This document shows, one piece after another, positions 15,095-23,604 of a stretch of 42,906 bases of DNA. Below the pieces are notes generated by a model, which saw nothing but the letters and a program-made list of their open reading frames with translations, was not told the origin of the DNA and made no database searches. The stretch spans positions 1 to 42,906 of the forward strand of contig SGZL01000007.1 of assembly GCA_004213955.1 (NCBI GenBank), written 5' to 3'. The number at the start of each line of letters is the position of its first letter. Within the stretch, counting starts at the first letter, position 1. The position numbers and the translations under genes were made by a program. This stretch comes from Gammaproteobacteria bacterium (lineage in GTDB: Bacteria; Pseudomonadota; Gammaproteobacteria; Magnimaribacterales; AG-339-G14).

Positions 15095-15760
15095 CTATTC
15101 AGTGATTGCGACGTCTAATTGTTCAATGTCAATGACATTATTTATATTTTTTACCAGACCATGAAAAACTTCCCCGGTAAGTTGTTTTTGTTCAACATGG
15201 GGCTCTAGAATATCTTTCCATAACTCTTTAACAGTCGGCTCCTCATTGGGAATAATAGAAGGATCAATCAATGAGATGCCTGAATAAGTGAATTCATTAT
15301 TTTTTGTACTTGCGCTTATATTAGAATTAACCAAATTAAAATCTCCATCAAGTTTAGTATGGTCTTTTATTAACACCAAGTGGGCTTTGCTTTTTAAGTC
15401 TTTTGTTACCAGCCTGCTAAAAGGATAATTTGTCCATAAATCGCCACTTACTAAAATGAAAGGTGAATCGTCCAGGAAACTTTTTCCTTGGATTAAAGCG
15501 CCGCCAGTGCCCAGTAAATTCTGTTCCTTAGAATATTGAATATTCAAATCCAAACTTTTTCCATCTCCAAAGTAATTTATTATTTCGTCTCCCAAATAGT
15601 GTAAGTTAATCAAAACGTCTTTTATTCCTGCACTTTTAAGTTTTAGTAAATTCCATTCAAGCAAGGGTTTGCCCTTAATTGAGACCAATGGTTTAGGAGT
15701 ATCGTTAGTCAATGGCTTCAACCTCTGTCCTTTACCTGCAGCTAAAATAAAAGCTTTCAC
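15095..15760 (-). CDS. murU: Nucleotidyltransferase, probably N-acetylmuramate-1-phosphate uridylyltransferase MurU
   Basis: This 221-residue protein is a sugar-nucleotide pyrophosphorylase-like enzyme: ILAAGKGQRLKPLTNDTPKPL (about 5-25) is the nucleotide-binding signature, LLGTGGALIQG is the substrate loop (about 83-93), and VSGDLW carries the metal-binding Asp. Its partner gene immediately upstream is an amgK-like kinase (ATGA overlap). The same pair, next to lptD-surA-pdxA-rsmA, is the MurNAc recycling module AmgK-MurU of Pseudomonas, which feeds UDP-MurNAc synthesis and bypasses fosfomycin-sensitive MurA. The assignment rests mainly on this context. Confidence 0.82.
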   Translation of the reverse strand: MKAFILAAGKGQRLKPLTNDTPKPLVSIKGKPLLEWNLLKLKSAGIKDVLINLHYLGDEIINYFGDGKSLDLNIQYSKEQNLLGTGGALIQGKSFLDDSPFILVSGDLWTNYPFSRLVTKDLKSKAHLVLIKDHTKLDGDFNLVNSNISASTKNNEFTYSGISLIDPSIIPNEEPTVKELWKDILEPHVEQKQLTGEVFHGLVKNINNVIDIEQLDVAITE

Positions 15761-16773
15761 GAAAAAATTCTTTCCATTTTCTTATTAAGAGGACCTTGTA
15801 AAGAGCTTATAGCTAAAGATAAGTTCTCTAATTCTGTATATCTTGACGAGGTCTCAACTAGATAATTTATTAATCTAGGAAAATCTTTTATACGTTCTTC
15901 TCTGTTTAGCTGCTGATAAACTTGAGACAACTTTCCTAGAATTCTTATTTGCCTTTGAATGCTTGCAAAATCTATAAATTTGACTAGTGATTCAAAACTA
16001 AGTTCTAAGTCAAACTTTTTTTTTACTTTTGAAATATAACTTTTGTACCAACTATGAATTCTTTCTTCAGACCACTCATAGTAAAGATCTTTAAATAAAG
16101 ATGCTAAATCTAAACCAATAGGTCCAATTAAAGCATCTTGAAAATCTAAAATTCCTGCTCTTTTAGAGCTGGTAAAAATTAAATTCCTACATTCGTAATC
16201 ATAATGACAAACTACTTTGGGTTGAGTTTCGAGCTGATTACATACAGCATCGTAATTTTTTTTTATTTTATTAAGAAGTTTATCATCTGACATATCAAGG
16301 AAATTTTTATAAAAATTTTTTTCAAATAAGTTCCAATTCATATCAAAAACTTTTTTATTTAGAGGTGTAAAAAAATTATCATCTTTATAGGATGATTGAA
16401 TTTTAATTAACTCATCTATTGCCTGTTCATAGTATAAATCTGGAGAATTATCTAAATTGAACTGATAAAGGGTATCTCCAAAATCTTCAACAAGAATTAG
16501 GCCAAGGTTTTCATCGTAAGCAAAAATCTCTGGAACATTAACTTTATTTTTTTTAAAAAATTTTCCCTTTGATACAAACAAATAAACACTTTCGTCGATA
16601 CCTGGTGGTACGATCATTAAAATTAAAGAATTTTTTTTTGACTTAACCCTAAAAAATTCTCTTTGGCTAGATTCAATTCTCAGCTGTGAGATAGATGTTA
16701 TATTTCCAAATCCATTATCTTCAAAAGACTTTAAAAGCCAATTATTTTGAGGAACAGATATCTCCAAATTCAA
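15757..16773 (-). CDS. amgK: Aminoglycoside phosphotransferase-fold sugar kinase, probably MurNAc/GlcNAc anomeric kinase AmgK
   Basis: This 338-residue kinase of the APH/choline kinase fold has the catalytic loop CHYDYECRNLIF (about 188-199) and the metal-binding ILDFQDALIGPIGLDLASL (about 207-225), which matches AmgK-type proteins (CHRDYHSRN and DFQDA). The N-terminal lobe contains QREFFRVKSKK. AmgK phosphorylates C1 of MurNAc for recycling through MurU, the next gene. Upstream in place of lptD's immediate divergent partner is an SDR gene, 9 bp away. Confidence 0.82.
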   Translation of the reverse strand: MNLEISVPQNNWLLKSFEDNGFGNITSISQLRIESSQREFFRVKSKKNSLILMIVPPGIDESVYLFVSKGKFFKKNKVNVPEIFAYDENLGLILVEDFGDTLYQFNLDNSPDLYYEQAIDELIKIQSSYKDDNFFTPLNKKVFDMNWNLFEKNFYKNFLDMSDDKLLNKIKKNYDAVCNQLETQPKVVCHYDYECRNLIFTSSKRAGILDFQDALIGPIGLDLASLFKDLYYEWSEERIHSWYKSYISKVKKKFDLELSFESLVKFIDFASIQRQIRILGKLSQVYQQLNREERIKDFPRLINYLVETSSRYTELENLSLAISSLQGPLNKKMERIFS

Positions 16774-17712: not shown

Positions 17713-19785
17713 ATGTTTAATTTTTCCAAAAAAATATTTTTATTATCTAGATATTGTTTCCTCTTCTTATTAGTTATTGTAGGAAGTTTTAGTTTTGGGC
17801 AAAAAATAAATTACTCAGCAGGGAAAATATCATCTAATTTAAACGAAAATTTAGTTTTAGAAGATTCTGTTTCCCTTCAAATAGATAACTTATCGATATC
17901 AACTGAAAAATTTGTATTAAATCAAGAAAATCAAAGCGGATATTCTGAATCTTTGTCATTTTTGGTTGAAGAAAAAAATTTCTGGGGTGAAGCTGCAAGA
18001 TTAAATTTTTCTAACGAAAATATTACTTTTAAAGATGTTAGTTTTTCTCTTTGCCCTTGTTTTGAAAAAATTTGGTGGATTGAGGCGTCGGAAATTTCTT
18101 TTAGTGAGGACTCTGAGTCGGTAAATTTTAAAAACGCAAAATTAATAATTCAAGACAAGACAATCGGCGCGTGGCCAAAAGGTTCATTTCCAGCTTCATC
18201 AGATAGAAGAAGCGGTTTTTTACTTCCTGAAATTAACATATCTAATAAGTCTGGAATCGATGCATCCATACCTTATTATTTCAACTTAAAGAAAAATTTA
18301 GATGCCACATTAGAACCAAGATACATTTCAAAAAGAGGTTTTGGAATTTCTAAAGAATTGCGTTATCTAACTAACACCTTTGACGGAGTAATTAATAGCT
18401 CTATTTTAACTAATGATAAAGAATATGAAGACAATTACAGCAATAATTCTTTTCGCTGGTCTTTTAATTTAATTCACTCTCAAGCATTTGAAGAAAATTC
18501 TTTTTTTGAAATTAAATATGCAAATGTTAGTGACACATTTTTTTTGAATGATTTTGGAGGAGATTTTAATGGAACTACAAAGACTCTCTATTCGCCTCAG
18601 CAACTAATTTTTTCTAATTATTCGGATAATCATAAAGCTGTACTAAAGATTAATGCATTCAAAATAATAGACCCTTTAGGAGAAAACCAGTTTCAGGAAC
18701 TGCCAAAACTTGAGTTTTCTTGGTTTGGGAACAACAAATTATATAACTATGGAATAGATTCTCTTTTCTCTTTCTATAGAAAGGGAGGAGCTTTCAATAA
18801 TACCAGCAAGGAAAAACTTGAGGATTATCATATATCTCCTTATTTAAATTTTTCCACAAACAGAAATTCTATTCTGGCCGAAGTATCAGCAAAAATTAAT
18901 CTAAGTAAATTTAATTTAGAAGCTTCATCCTTTGAAAGGATTCAACCAGAATTAAGATTAAAGTTTTCTAAAAATTTTGTTAAAAAAGATTCTTCTAAGA
19001 TTGATTTTTTAAAACCCTATCTCATATTTTTATTATCGCCACAAAAAAATCAAGATGGTATTCCACTATTAAATTCTGGAATCTCTATGCGTCAAAATAG
19101 TTTTTTAATTAACAATTTGAATGGCAAAAATTTCTTAGCAGAAAAAAAAGATCTTATTTTGGGTTGGTTGAGTGAAACTTATAACTCGAAGCGAAAGTTA
19201 ATGAAGTTTAATTTTTCAAAAAAAATCAGTGGTGCAAATGAAATTAAAATATTAGACAAAACATTTATTCTTCCGGAACCATATAATTTAGACTTTAGTT
19301 ATCTTCCTGATAAAAAATCAACTTTTAATTTGAACCTAAAGATAAATGATGTGAAAGAATTTAATATTTTAAATTTTAATTTTGAAAAGAGCTTTTCTGT
19401 TTCTTTTTTTAAATTAAATTATTTTTGGGCGGAAGATATAAATTCATATCTTTTGAATGATTCTAGTAAAAAAAAGCTAAATCAATTAGATGCTGAATTT
19501 AGATTTAATGGAAATTATAAATATAATTTCAGTTCAAAGATTATTTATGACATTGAAAATTCTAATCTGACTAATTTTGTTCTAGGTTTAGAATACGAAA
19601 ATCCTGGCCTAAAATTTGGTATGGCTTTAATCCATTCAAAAGAACTTGATTGGGTAAAAGTTATAAATGAAAGTATTTATGATGACTATAATCAAGAAAG
19701 TTTTAGAATTTACTTTGAATTAAAGGGTCTGGGTTCATTAGGACGACCTATAGATAATTACATAAAAAGAAGAACTTTGAACTAA
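17713..19785 (+). CDS. lptD: LPS-assembly outer-membrane protein LptD
   Basis: This 690-residue protein inserts lipopolysaccharide into the outer leaflet together with LptE. It has a signal peptide (1-29), a short periplasmic OstA-type domain (about 33-160), and a beta-barrel of aromatic-alternating strands to the end. The hallmark SDRRSGFLLPEI lies near 160-171. C114 and C116 (LCPC) fall where E. coli Cys173 lies. No other cysteine occurs in the mature protein: the C-terminal CC pair of E. coli LptD is replaced by a YENPGLKFG segment, so the usual N-to-C disulfides cannot form. It is followed 1-10 bp later by surA, the chaperone for LptD folding. Confidence 0.95.
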   Translation: MFNFSKKIFLLSRYCFLFLLVIVGSFSFGQKINYSAGKISSNLNENLVLEDSVSLQIDNLSISTEKFVLNQENQSGYSESLSFLVEEKNFWGEAARLNFSNENITFKDVSFSLCPCFEKIWWIEASEISFSEDSESVNFKNAKLIIQDKTIGAWPKGSFPASSDRRSGFLLPEINISNKSGIDASIPYYFNLKKNLDATLEPRYISKRGFGISKELRYLTNTFDGVINSSILTNDKEYEDNYSNNSFRWSFNLIHSQAFEENSFFEIKYANVSDTFFLNDFGGDFNGTTKTLYSPQQLIFSNYSDNHKAVLKINAFKIIDPLGENQFQELPKLEFSWFGNNKLYNYGIDSLFSFYRKGGAFNNTSKEKLEDYHISPYLNFSTNRNSILAEVSAKINLSKFNLEASSFERIQPELRLKFSKNFVKKDSSKIDFLKPYLIFLLSPQKNQDGIPLLNSGISMRQNSFLINNLNGKNFLAEKKDLILGWLSETYNSKRKLMKFNFSKKISGANEIKILDKTFILPEPYNLDFSYLPDKKSTFNLNLKINDVKEFNILNFNFEKSFSVSFFKLNYFWAEDINSYLLNDSSKKKLNQLDAEFRFNGNYKYNFSSKIIYDIENSNLTNFVLGLEYENPGLKFGMALIHSKELDWVKVINESIYDDYNQESFRIYFELKGLGSLGRPIDNYIKRRTLN

Positions 19786-19795
19786 AATGATTGCC

Positions 19796-21037
19796 ATGAA
19801 ATTTATAAAACTATTAGTTATTTTAATTTTTACAACTCCTATATTTTCAGAAAAAATTAATCTTGATCAAATTATTGCAATCGCAGGAGATGGAATAATT
19901 ATGGAATCTCAATTCCTTGAGGCTAAAGAAACTTACCTCAAGAATTTTAAAGAAGCTAATGTCGATAGACCTCTACCCCCTGAAAAATTTCTTGATGAAC
20001 AGATCTTAGAAAATTTAATAATTCAAGAACTACAAATTCAAAAAGCATTTAAAGCTGGAGTAAGAATTAGCGATCAAGAATTAAACGAATCAATGTCCTT
20101 GCTTGCAGCGAATAATAAGTTAAGTTTGGTAGATTTTAAAAAAGAAATCGAATCGCAAGGTGAATCTTACGAGAAGCTTAGAGAAGAAGTAAAAAAGGAA
20201 ATGATAATTGCTAGAGTCCAAAGGGGAATGGTTGGTCCTAAAGTATTTATTTCAGATCAAGAGTTAAATAATTTTATTAACTCTGCAGATGGGCAGAATT
20301 TACTAGTGATCGAATATAAATTCGATCAAATCTTGTTGAAAAATAAAGACGATGCAGATGAAATTTTAGTTCGTCTGAAAGATGGTGAAAATTTTGATAC
20401 TTTAAAAAATAATAAAGACGAGTCTAAGCGAGTTGAAGAAGTATTATCTTGGAAAAGGATTTCGAATATTCCTTCTTTGTTCACAAGCGTTATCAATGAA
20501 ATGCAATTGGGGGAATTTAGAGGGCCAATTAAAAGCGGAGCTGGTTTTCATATTATTTACTTGAAAGATAAAAGAGGAGAAACAGTGAAAATTGAAGATC
20601 AAGTTCTATCAAGGCATATTCTGGTTCAAACCTCTGAAGTAAGAAGCGACAGTCAAGCGGAAAAACTAATAAGAGAAATTAAAGAAAAGTTAAATCAAGG
20701 CGAGTCTTTCGAGATTCTTGCAAGATTATACTCAGATGACCCTGGTTCCAAATTAGACGGAGGTTCTCTTGGTTGGTCCTCTACTGATAATTATGCACCT
20801 GCATTTAAAAAAGCCCTCGACAATTCTGAGATGAATAATATTACTGAACCATTTAAAAGCGCTTTTGGATGGCACATTGCTGAAGTTTTAGATAAAAGAA
20901 AGGAAGATGTATCAATAAACCTACAAAGAAATAAAGCTTACAGAATTCTTTTTGAAAGAAAATTCCAAGAACAACTGGAAAGCACTCTGCAAGAGATGCG
21001 ATCAGATTCTTTCGTAGAAATCAAAAAAAGATCATGA
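19796..21037 (+). CDS. surA: Periplasmic chaperone/peptidyl-prolyl isomerase SurA
   Basis: SurA escorts outer-membrane proteins, LptD among them, through the periplasm. The 413-residue product starts with a signal peptide (MKFIKLLVILIFTTPIFS), then the N-domain (IIAIAGDGIIMESQFLEAK). A first parvulin-like domain (about 165-260) is weakly conserved. A well-conserved second parvulin domain (about 265-375) shows SRHILVQTSE, LYSDDPGSKLDGGSLGW and FGWHIAEVLD. An ATG at 19787 would add three residues before the signal; neither start has a clear ribosome-binding site, and I prefer the one giving the typical MKxxK start. The TGA overlaps the pdxA ATG. Confidence 0.95.
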   Translation: MKFIKLLVILIFTTPIFSEKINLDQIIAIAGDGIIMESQFLEAKETYLKNFKEANVDRPLPPEKFLDEQILENLIIQELQIQKAFKAGVRISDQELNESMSLLAANNKLSLVDFKKEIESQGESYEKLREEVKKEMIIARVQRGMVGPKVFISDQELNNFINSADGQNLLVIEYKFDQILLKNKDDADEILVRLKDGENFDTLKNNKDESKRVEEVLSWKRISNIPSLFTSVINEMQLGEFRGPIKSGAGFHIIYLKDKRGETVKIEDQVLSRHILVQTSEVRSDSQAEKLIREIKEKLNQGESFEILARLYSDDPGSKLDGGSLGWSSTDNYAPAFKKALDNSEMNNITEPFKSAFGWHIAEVLDKRKEDVSINLQRNKAYRILFERKFQEQLESTLQEMRSDSFVEIKKRS

Positions 21038-21990
21038 GTCTAATAGCTATAAGTCCTGGAGATCCTGCCGGGATTGGTCCAGAAGTTTGCTTGAAAGCTT
21101 TAAGTAAAAACAAAAAAAATTATAAAAAATTTGTACTTGTTGGAGATATAGAGCATTTTGAGACTTTAAATAAAAAACTCGAACTAAATTTAAAATTCAA
21201 AATTAATGCTAAGGCTTCTGGAATAATAAATGTTCGACATGTTCCTTTAGCAACAAAAGTGGTTCTAGGTAAACCGAATACAAAAAATGCTAAATACATT
21301 TTAGACGTATTATTTGAAGCTTCTTTGGGAGCACTTGAAAAGAGATATTCCGCGATTATCACAGGTCCAATTAATAAAGCCTTGATAAACGAATACGGTT
21401 TTGATTTTTCAGGTCATACTGAATTTCTTGCTGATATTTCAAATAAAAAAAATGTTGTCATGCTTTTAGCAAACAAGTTTTTAAAAGTAGCTTTAGCGAC
21501 TACTCACCTTCCGCTTAAAGAAGTTAGCAAAAATATCACAACTGAAAAACTAGAAAATATTCTTAAAATTCTTATTAACGAACTAAAACAGAAATGGAAA
21601 TTAAAGAATCCTAAAATATGTGTTTTAGGCTTAAATCCTCATGCTGGAGAAAATGGTTTTTTGGGATCTGAAGAAATCGAAGTAATTAAGCCCGTGATAG
21701 ACAAACTAAAAAAAAATAAACTTAATGTAGATGGACCAGAACCCGCTGATACAGCATTTGTACCTGAAAAGTTAGACAAATATGATGCCTACCTATCAAT
21801 GTTTCATGATCAAGGACTGCCGGTTTTAAAAACTTTAGGATTTGGAAATTCAGTAAATATTACTCTTGGTCTGCCTTTTATTAGGGTGTCTGTTGATCAC
21901 GGTACTGCTTACGATATAGCCAAAAAATTCTCTGCCAACGATGCCAGTGCATTAGAGGCGATTAGAACTTCTCTAGAGATGACAGAGTGA
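21034..21990 (+). CDS. pdxA: 4-hydroxythreonine-4-phosphate dehydrogenase PdxA
   Basis: This 318-residue enzyme oxidises 4-phosphohydroxy-threonine in the DXP-dependent pyridoxal 5'-phosphate pathway. ISPGDPAGIGPEV (about 5-17) is the family start. TGPINKALINEYGFDFSGHTEF (about 110-131) contains one metal-binding His, and FHDQGLPVLK and VDHGTAYDIA contain the others. The length is normal. It overlaps surA (ATGA) and rsmA (GTGA), matching the conserved lptD-surA-pdxA-rsmA order. Confidence 0.97.
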   Translation: MSLIAISPGDPAGIGPEVCLKALSKNKKNYKKFVLVGDIEHFETLNKKLELNLKFKINAKASGIINVRHVPLATKVVLGKPNTKNAKYILDVLFEASLGALEKRYSAIITGPINKALINEYGFDFSGHTEFLADISNKKNVVMLLANKFLKVALATTHLPLKEVSKNITTEKLENILKILINELKQKWKLKNPKICVLGLNPHAGENGFLGSEEIEVIKPVIDKLKKNKLNVDGPEPADTAFVPEKLDKYDAYLSMFHDQGLPVLKTLGFGNSVNITLGLPFIRVSVDHGTAYDIAKKFSANDASALEAIRTSLEMTE

Positions 21991-22781
21991 AAAATCTTAA
22001 TAAAATTAATCCAAAAAAAAGATTTGGACAAAATTTTTTAGAAGATCAAATATTACTTGATGAACTAGCCAACTTAATTGAAATAAAAAATCATGACAGA
22101 TTTATAGAAATTGGTCCTGGAACTGGAAACCTTACCCAATTGATTTTAGATAAGTCAGATTCTTGTGTCTCTGTGGAAATAGATAAAAATTTAATCCCTT
22201 TACTAGAGGAGAAATTTATTAAAAAAAATAACTTTAAACTTATCAATCAAAGCATATTAAGTTTTGATTTAAGTAAGATTACTAAAAAGAAAAAAAGTAT
22301 CCGTCTAGCCGGCAATCTTCCTTACAATCTTTCAAGTCCAATACTTGAGTGGTGTATCAAAAATTCTGAATCAATAATTGATATGCATTTTATGTTGCAA
22401 AAAGAATTTGCGGAAAGATGTGTTGGAAATGAGACTTCTAAATCATACGGAAAACTTAGTGTTATTTGCGACTATTTATTTGAAGTGCAAATTTTAAAGG
22501 ATGTAGATAAATCTTTCTTTAATCCGTCTCCTAAGGTTGATAGCTCTTTTGTAAAATTCAAGCCTAAAAAAGAATTTTTAGATCAAAATGAATTTGCAAA
22601 TCTAAAAAAAATATTAAATCACTTATTTAGTGCAAAAAGAAAAAAAATAAGAAAAACTCTCACTAAAATTTTTAATGAAAGTGAAATCAATAAAATAGAT
22701 TTGGATTTAAATCTTCGACCTGATCAAATGAATACCCAAAACTTTGTCGATTTATCTAGAGTCTATAAAAATCATGGCTAA
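21987..22781 (+). CDS. rsmA: 16S rRNA dimethyladenosine transferase RsmA (KsgA)
   Basis: This 264-residue SAM-dependent enzyme dimethylates A1518 and A1519 in the 3' helix of 16S rRNA. KKRFGQNFLED (10-20) and the SAM motif IEIGPGTGNLT (40-50) are clear, and the catalytic NLPYN is at 110-114. It starts at GTG, overlapping the pdxA stop as GTGA. The apaG gene that follows it in many gammaproteobacteria is absent; apaH begins 8 bp before its stop. Confidence 0.97.
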   Translation: MKNLNKINPKKRFGQNFLEDQILLDELANLIEIKNHDRFIEIGPGTGNLTQLILDKSDSCVSVEIDKNLIPLLEEKFIKKNNFKLINQSILSFDLSKITKKKKSIRLAGNLPYNLSSPILEWCIKNSESIIDMHFMLQKEFAERCVGNETSKSYGKLSVICDYLFEVQILKDVDKSFFNPSPKVDSSFVKFKPKKEFLDQNEFANLKKILNHLFSAKRKKIRKTLTKIFNESEINKIDLDLNLRPDQMNTQNFVDLSRVYKNHG

Positions 22782-23604
22782 TTACGCTGTTGGAGATATC
22801 CAGGGATGTTATGAAGAATTTGAGAAAGGATTAAAAAAAATAAAATTTAATCAAAAGAAGGATTATCTATGGTTAACGGGAGATTTGATAAATAGAGGGC
22901 CTGATTCTTTGAAGACTCTAGAAAAAATTTATGAACTTCGCTCTAGAGTGCATATAGTTCTGGGTAATCATGATCTTCATTTTTTAGCTAGATATTACTC
23001 TGGTCGAAAAAAACAGAAGAGTGATACTTTGAAAGAAGTTTTAAAAGATTCAGATTGTAAAAAATATGCTGAATTTCTAATTAAACAACCCTTTTTCTTT
23101 TCCAAAAAAATTAAACTAAGTAATGGGTCAAAGAAGAAAATAATTATGGTGCATGCAGGTCTTCCTCATGATTTAAGTTACAAAGATTGTCTTAGGCTAA
23201 ACAAGCTTAGTCAGAAATTTATCCAAAAAGACCCAAAAAAAAATCTCAAAAAAATCTTTTTTCATCATAGAAAAACTAATTTTAAAATTACTTCATTACA
23301 AGATAAACTTTCTTTCTTTATCAATGCTTTAACTAGAATTAGAATTTGCGATGATAATGGCAAGATTTTATTTTCTTTTAAAAAGGGTTTAAAAGATCTT
23401 CCATATAATTATTTACCTTGGTTTAAACTTAAAATAAACGCTATTCAAGAAAAAGATTATTTAATATTTGGTCATTGGGCTGCATTAAATGGAAAAACAA
23501 GAAAAAAAAATATTATGGGGTTAGATACTGGTTGTGTCTGGGGTAATAAACTAACTTTTATAAGGCTTGAAGACAAAAAAAAATATTGGATAAAAAGTAG
23601 TTAA
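22774..23604 (+). CDS. apaH: Symmetrical bis(5'-nucleosyl)-tetraphosphatase ApaH
   Basis: This 276-residue metallophosphoesterase splits Ap4A into two ADP and also acts as an RNA decapping enzyme in E. coli. The metal motifs are GDIQGCYEEF (5-14), LTGDLINRGPDS (about 35-46) and VLGNHDLHFLA (about 64-74), with VHAGLPHD and a late FGHWAAL histidine. I start it at the ATG at 22774 (MANYAVGDIQG) rather than 22744, since the first motif must lie at the N-terminus. It overlaps rsmA by 8 bp and directly abuts cca. Confidence 0.95.
   Translation: MANYAVGDIQGCYEEFEKGLKKIKFNQKKDYLWLTGDLINRGPDSLKTLEKIYELRSRVHIVLGNHDLHFLARYYSGRKKQKSDTLKEVLKDSDCKKYAEFLIKQPFFFSKKIKLSNGSKKKIIMVHAGLPHDLSYKDCLRLNKLSQKFIQKDPKKNLKKIFFHHRKTNFKITSLQDKLSFFINALTRIRICDDNGKILFSFKKGLKDLPYNYLPWFKLKINAIQEKDYLIFGHWAALNGKTRKKNIMGLDTGCVWGNKLTFIRLEDKKKYWIKSS

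Follow-up and report, generated by a model that had tools for sequence, protein, structure and literature searches.

LptD, the LPS-assembly outer membrane protein, is activated in Escherichia coli through disulfides among four cysteines (C31, C173, C724 and C725). According to PMC10567701, the protein requires at least one bond that joins non-consecutive cysteines, a working translocon needs an interdomain bond, and an early form whose bond lies within the N-terminal part is defective. The stretch of DNA analyzed here (the window; 42,906 nucleotides, contig SGZL01000007.1) encodes an LptD whose barrel has no cysteine with which to form a disulfide to the N-terminal domain. It raises the question of how the two domains of such a protein are held in register, and what the cysteines that it retains are for. 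Among the literature matches listed, judged by title and the start of the abstract, there was no paper on LptD in such a cysteine state, and a query joining SAR86 with LptD gave none.

Identity and cysteine inventory of the window's LptD

The 690-residue open reading frame product matches PF04453 with an E-value of 6.2e-17 and 62.4 bits, above the curated cut-off of 22.4; against the NCBIfam LptD model it scores 171.6 bits, less than that model's own cut-off of 683. A phmmer comparison with solved LptD chains gave matches, the best being 5iv9 (E 4.4e-33). The structure model, built from 28 sequences (mean pLDDT 74, pTM 0.65), superimposes through residues 22-687 on E. coli LptD (9kn3_A; Z 22.4, 630 residues, rmsd 4.9), in keeping with an N-terminal periplasmic domain that leads into a large outer-membrane barrel. 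The frame encodes a true LptD, and it is the only PF04453 match in its own genome (1.06 Mb in 28 contigs, 93% completeness). A scan of 84,980 genomes for relatives of the family's LptD recovered 33 loci, the nearest 83% identical; as these closest relatives belong to SAR86, we assign the window to that group too. The features of the locus are collected in Table 1. The last gene listed is called apaH-like after the usual gene order. Near lptD, positions 15095-16773 hold a nucleotidyltransferase and a phosphotransferase gene by Pfam, which we take to resemble a MurU/AmgK pair.

Table 1. Coordinates of lptD, its cysteine-related sites and the genes that follow it in the window.
Feature	Position	Strand	Basis
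lptD, LPS-assembly outer membrane protein, 690 aa, without barrel cysteines	17713..19785	+	PF04453; PDB relatives; model vs E. coli LptD 9kn3_A
Probable signal peptide, about residues 1-29, contains C15	17713..17799	+	Helix 16-25, pLDDT <50 over residues 1-30; presumed cleavage site
CPC loop with the IWW after it (residues 113-122), joining strands 104-112 and 121-130	18049..18078	+	Alignments, model
C114-P115-C116; C114 equals E. coli C173, C116 family-specific	18052..18060	+	170-sequence alignment, E. coli numbering
P631-G632 in place of the CC pair (E. coli C724-C725), at the turn joining strands 618-629 and 633-645	19603..19608	+	Alignment, model
surA, periplasmic chaperone, next gene after lptD	19787..21037	+	PF09312 and PPIase domains
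pdxA	21034..21990	+	PF04166
rsmA (ksgA)	21987..22781	+	Named from translation and gene order
apaH-like metallophosphoesterase	22744..23604	+	PF00149

The full-length protein has three cysteines, C15, C114 and C116, and no others. MAFFT places C15 opposite E. coli C31; of 29 family members just one has cysteine in this column, and C15 probably sits in the signal peptide. The mature chain carries two cysteines, C114 and C116, with no equivalent of C31 near its start in this family, where the columns of residues 27-110 are free of cysteine in all 29 members. In E. coli numbering C173 corresponds to C114, C724 to P631 and C725 to G632, and the former CC site reads YENPGLKFG. Both sequence and alignment thus bear out the original prediction, which listed C114 and C116 as the only mature cysteines, with none in the barrel and this same sequence at the CC site. 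Its statement that the protein is unable to form interdomain disulfides is a consequence of the sequence and is true of all family genomes that were readable. On one point of wording, the loop motif is CxC (CPC) and not CxxC.

Distribution of the cysteine state

We compared 170 LptD sequences, comprising 29 from the window's family (f1), 25 and 33 from the SAR86 families f2 and f3, 60 from other Gammaproteobacteria and 23 lower-scoring sequences of the same class. The 60 class genomes (56 families) were picked among the top-scoring matches and are biased to typical LptD, and the 23 lower-scoring genomes were added as an offset. At several loci the longest frame was not LptD and the LptD frame was picked with the profile; PF04453 gave no match in four class genomes (G155, G427, G479 and G502). 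Cysteine occupies the C114 column in 170/170 sequences, and the C116 column in 29/29 f1 sequences and 0/141 others. The two barrel columns show the reverse, with cysteines in 141/141 sequences outside f1 and in none of the 29 within it, so the alignment that had been proposed across the clade does show loss of the pair from the C-terminal turn. Among the 141, the pair is an adjacent CC in 139 and CxC in two (L247 and L320). In f1 the turn has G632 in 29/29 sequences, and position 631 varies (P, D, E, K or N). Left out of the 170 were L013, L017 and L026 (broken or cut family genes, read separately), G011 (also read separately) and seven cut genes or second pieces; of these seven, L317, L322 and L332 have CC, L325 has CxC, and L326, L328 and L331 stop before the turn.

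A search of 40 family genomes gave an LptD match in 35, as a single match in 33 and as two pieces of one gene in G016 and G020; the five genomes without a match are 60-90% complete. CPC is present in 32/32 family genomes with the loop region (31 frames and G011), and the barrel pair is missing in 35/35 with the C-terminal region. These 35 are the 32 CPC genomes (G016 through its second piece), G020, and the fragments L151 and L153, assigned by contig position to G031 and G015, respectively. An alignment-free check agrees, with no cysteine after the loop in 31/31 family frames, one of which is cut short. In the family alignment A2, C-P-C is invariant in 28/28 sequences at identities to the window protein as low as 30%.

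Close relatives with the CC pair, a sequencing error or a second four-cysteine lptD, each named beforehand as a finding that would tell against the prediction, were not found among these mostly incomplete genomes. The CPC and barrel counts rule out a sequencing error or an odd strain as the cause, and the own genome, with its one PF04453 match, offers no second copy.

Three further observations were made in these searches. The f1 lptD at L013 (genome G016) is split across two frames, owing either to faulty assembly or to a genuine frameshift. The barrel cysteines of L320 and L325, from one class family (f95), have CxC spacing (CDC and CNC), as in the CGC variant of Neisseria. Finally, at E <=0.1 PF04453 matched none of 10 genomes of the SAR86 family f4 (G042, G045, G048, G051 and others); LptA-like genes are nevertheless present in 4/4, and LptB-like genes, scoring under the model cut-off, in 3/3. 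The LptD of f4 may be lost, replaced or too divergent.

Order of cysteine loss and gain

Each of f1, f2 and f3 forms one clade in the LptD tree (support 0.999, 1.0 and 1.0), and f1 and f2 are sisters with support of 0.80. All three families belong to the same order and share the C173 equivalent. In contrast to f1, f2 and f3 keep the CC pair; a single cysteine occurs in the N-terminal stretch (columns of residues 27-110) of 33/33 f3 members and is absent from 25/25 f2 and 29/29 f1 members. The simplest order is that the C31 equivalent was lost before the split of f1 and f2, with the barrel pair then lost and C116 gained on the f1 branch. From the family-wide column counts, therefore, loss of the interdomain bonds and gain of the CPC loop both fall on one branch.

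Stepwise loss with C31 first, which agrees with the tree, is also what drift would produce if the link were dispensable in streamlined genomes and the CPC left functionless, and the assemblies are small, at 0.8-1.3 Mb. Against this, CPC has been held in every family genome with the loop, at identities down to 30%, while position 631 drifted, and we regard drift as very unlikely.

Predicted structure and family-specific residues

The model places CPC in the loop between two strands of the N-terminal domain (Table 1). Thirteen positions carry a residue that is fixed or nearly fixed in f1 and uncommon in the other sequences, and seven of them (116, 120, 122, 632, 647, 659 and 665) are found at one or other end of the lost bond. 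Compared with 79 nearly invariant f1 positions this clustering has p 0.008, in what is a weak test since the regions were picked after looking; with C116 and G632 left out, 5/11 are clustered with p 0.044, under the same qualification. The clustered residues offer a hint, no more, of new docking contacts.

Candidate partners and the Dsb system

The own genome encodes DsbB (CPMC) and DsbC (CGFC), and is among the 133/151 genomes of the order with DsbB and the 124/151 with DsbC_N. PF01323 (DSBA) is matched in 151/151 order genomes and four times in the own genome, where the best match is a 203-residue protein with one cysteine and no CxxC; DsbC also matches PF01323. Of the checks suggested at the outset, on dsbA, dsbC and lptE, DsbC was present and an lptE candidate was located by its position in the order leuS-ORF-holA, and a true DsbA was not pinned down by the PF01323 search of the own genome (four matches, two of them read). 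Loss of the Dsb system as the cause of the missing disulfides is unsupported, with DsbB and DsbC retained. The earlier suggestion that disulfide exchange is absent fits LptD itself, but the genome still encodes these two Dsb proteins. The DsbC of this lineage (L334 4182-4889; L337 4585-5292) begins with a lipobox-like ISCS or ASCS, and from this sequence it may be a lipoprotein.

PF04390 found LptE in 9/151 genomes and in none of the window's family. The LptE candidates considered here were picked by the leuS-ORF-holA order and a lipobox, and no family model backs them; 10 f1 loci yielded six candidates, the leuS motif not being found in L199, L205, L206 and L207. In 6/6 the lipobox cysteine is the sole cysteine. 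A single membrane-anchored ORF of 183-238 residues occupies the interval between kdsD and lptB in 15/16 f1 loci; it is called LptC-like by position, as Pfam gives nothing and TIGR04409 (LptC) gives E 0.034. Twelve of these 15 ORFs have no cysteine; in the other three a single cysteine lies close to the start, within the membrane segment. Because of these cysteine counts, a disulfide between LptD and the LptE or LptC-like candidates appears unlikely. The kdsD-ORF-lptB arrangement of f1 (L225 2207-2761 and equivalents) has just this one LptC-like ORF, and the f3 and f4 loci examined have a short LptA-like one there. No separate LptA was found with PF03968 in 17/17 f1 genomes, the single match (1/17) falling within LptD itself.

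These counts bear on the idea that C114 or C116 bonds another envelope protein in place of the barrel link. The idea would account for the retention of C114 in every aligned LptD, including f1, which is without its E. coli partner. However, no conserved free cysteine occurs in the LptE and LptC-like candidates, the only partners screened, and we consider such a bond highly doubtful.

A proposed local bond in the CPC loop

We favor the reading, at a probability of roughly 0.55, that f1 LptD lost its domain-linking disulfides on the branch to one SAR86 family, that C114 and C116 bond to each other locally, and that the two domains dock non-covalently. A local bond is suggested because C114 is kept, P115 is invariant and C116 is new. 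In an oxidizing periplasm this bond would be made by the general Dsb oxidation system, with the consequence that there would be no disulfide exchange into the barrel. The polypeptide hinge, together with non-covalent packing, would keep the N-terminal domain and barrel in register; residues specific to the family at either end of the lost bond may contribute to this packing (I120 and W122 on one side; G632, W647, Y659 and R665 on the other). The f1 translocon would thus work in a state like the early intermediate of E. coli, bonded inside its N-terminal domain but with no disulfide to the barrel. Because E. coli needs an interdomain bond and its N-terminally bonded form is defective (PMC10567701), docking in f1 would have to differ from that in E. 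coli.

The thiols could instead bind a metal ion or remain reduced, and two invariant cysteines two residues apart with an invariant glutamate nearby (E124) might suit a metal site. Yet A2 contains a single invariant histidine, H255, located in the barrel part, there is no third cysteine, and a periplasm with DsbB and DsbC favors oxidation; we give this little credence. The original prediction had left the role of the LCPC motif between local metal binding and a local bond; of the two, a CxC bond is the better supported, on inferential grounds, and metal binding finds little support.

Comparison with other LptD proteins and CPC systems

The window's LptD shares with E. coli LptD its family, its fold over model residues 22-687 and the C173 equivalent. 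It differs in having no mature C31 equivalent, no barrel cysteines and an additional cysteine, C116, so that an interdomain bond is impossible. Two related departures have been published. Neisseria LptD, with a CGC turn (PMC8983717), also deviates from the adjacent CC pair, with a CxC spacing that L247 and L320 share; unlike in f1, its N-terminal domain is still bonded to the barrel. The LptD of Campylobacter jejuni has two cysteines (PMC7089426) and, like f1, fewer than E. coli.

A parallel was found in a sample of 13 alphaproteobacterial lptD genes from a plasmid collection, chosen by hand from 43 and 44 matching records of all kinds. The Bradyrhizobium gene (L350) is a fragment without the N-terminal loop, and the frame of one Sinorhizobium meliloti gene (L346) ends before the C-terminal turn. 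The loop has CxxC in 11/12 and a more widely spaced pair in Sphingomonas (L347). A cysteine is kept in the turn in 9/12, and is absent from Sinorhizobium L339 and L344 and Shinella L345. The annotated S. meliloti LptD (L339, from base 979) has exactly two cysteines, both within CxxC. These Rhizobiaceae proteins resemble f1 in having a cysteine pair in the C173 loop and no barrel cysteine, and differ in that the pair is CxxC rather than CPC and the loop is longer. Judged from their sequences, Sinorhizobium and Shinella have reached the end state of f1 separately.

This parallel also bears on whether the CPC is redox-active, cycling between bonded and free forms to sense or drive a step of LptD assembly, as in Mia40. 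PMC11452306 indicates that a CPC pair can be both bonded and redox-active, and the tripeptide C114-P115-C116 is identical to the active site of Mia40-type oxidoreductases; P115 is as invariant as both cysteines, and DsbB and DsbC are encoded. The helix-coil-helix core and structural disulfides that the same paper describes for Mia40 have no counterpart in the window's LptD, which has no other mature cysteines and a mostly beta model. Furthermore, LptD has no partner cysteine left, none is conserved in the LptE and LptC-like candidates examined, and the Rhizobiaceae use CxxC, so that a plain local bond covers both lineages. We therefore judge a redox-active CPC unlikely.

More broadly, and more tentatively than the local bond in f1, LptD may be activatable without a covalent link between its domains; on this proposal, which we hold to be possible but on balance doubtful, SAR86 f1 and separately the Rhizobiaceae moved the disulfide into the N-terminal loop as a local lock or redox switch, with register coming from new non-covalent contacts. 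If this were true, the gating of LPS export by disulfide exchange, as in E. coli, would be one solution among several. The existence of a natural lineage that has no barrel cysteines but has kept and remodelled its C173 loop suggests that, in a suitable background, LptD can do without the tie, and f1 offers a set of residues for testing non-covalent docking as a replacement for it.

The L346 copy of lptD, on plasmid p_3 of S. meliloti RCAM1115, is in two pieces by tblastn; the plasmid is typed as conjugative, and the copy lies upstream of an IS256-type transposase gene.
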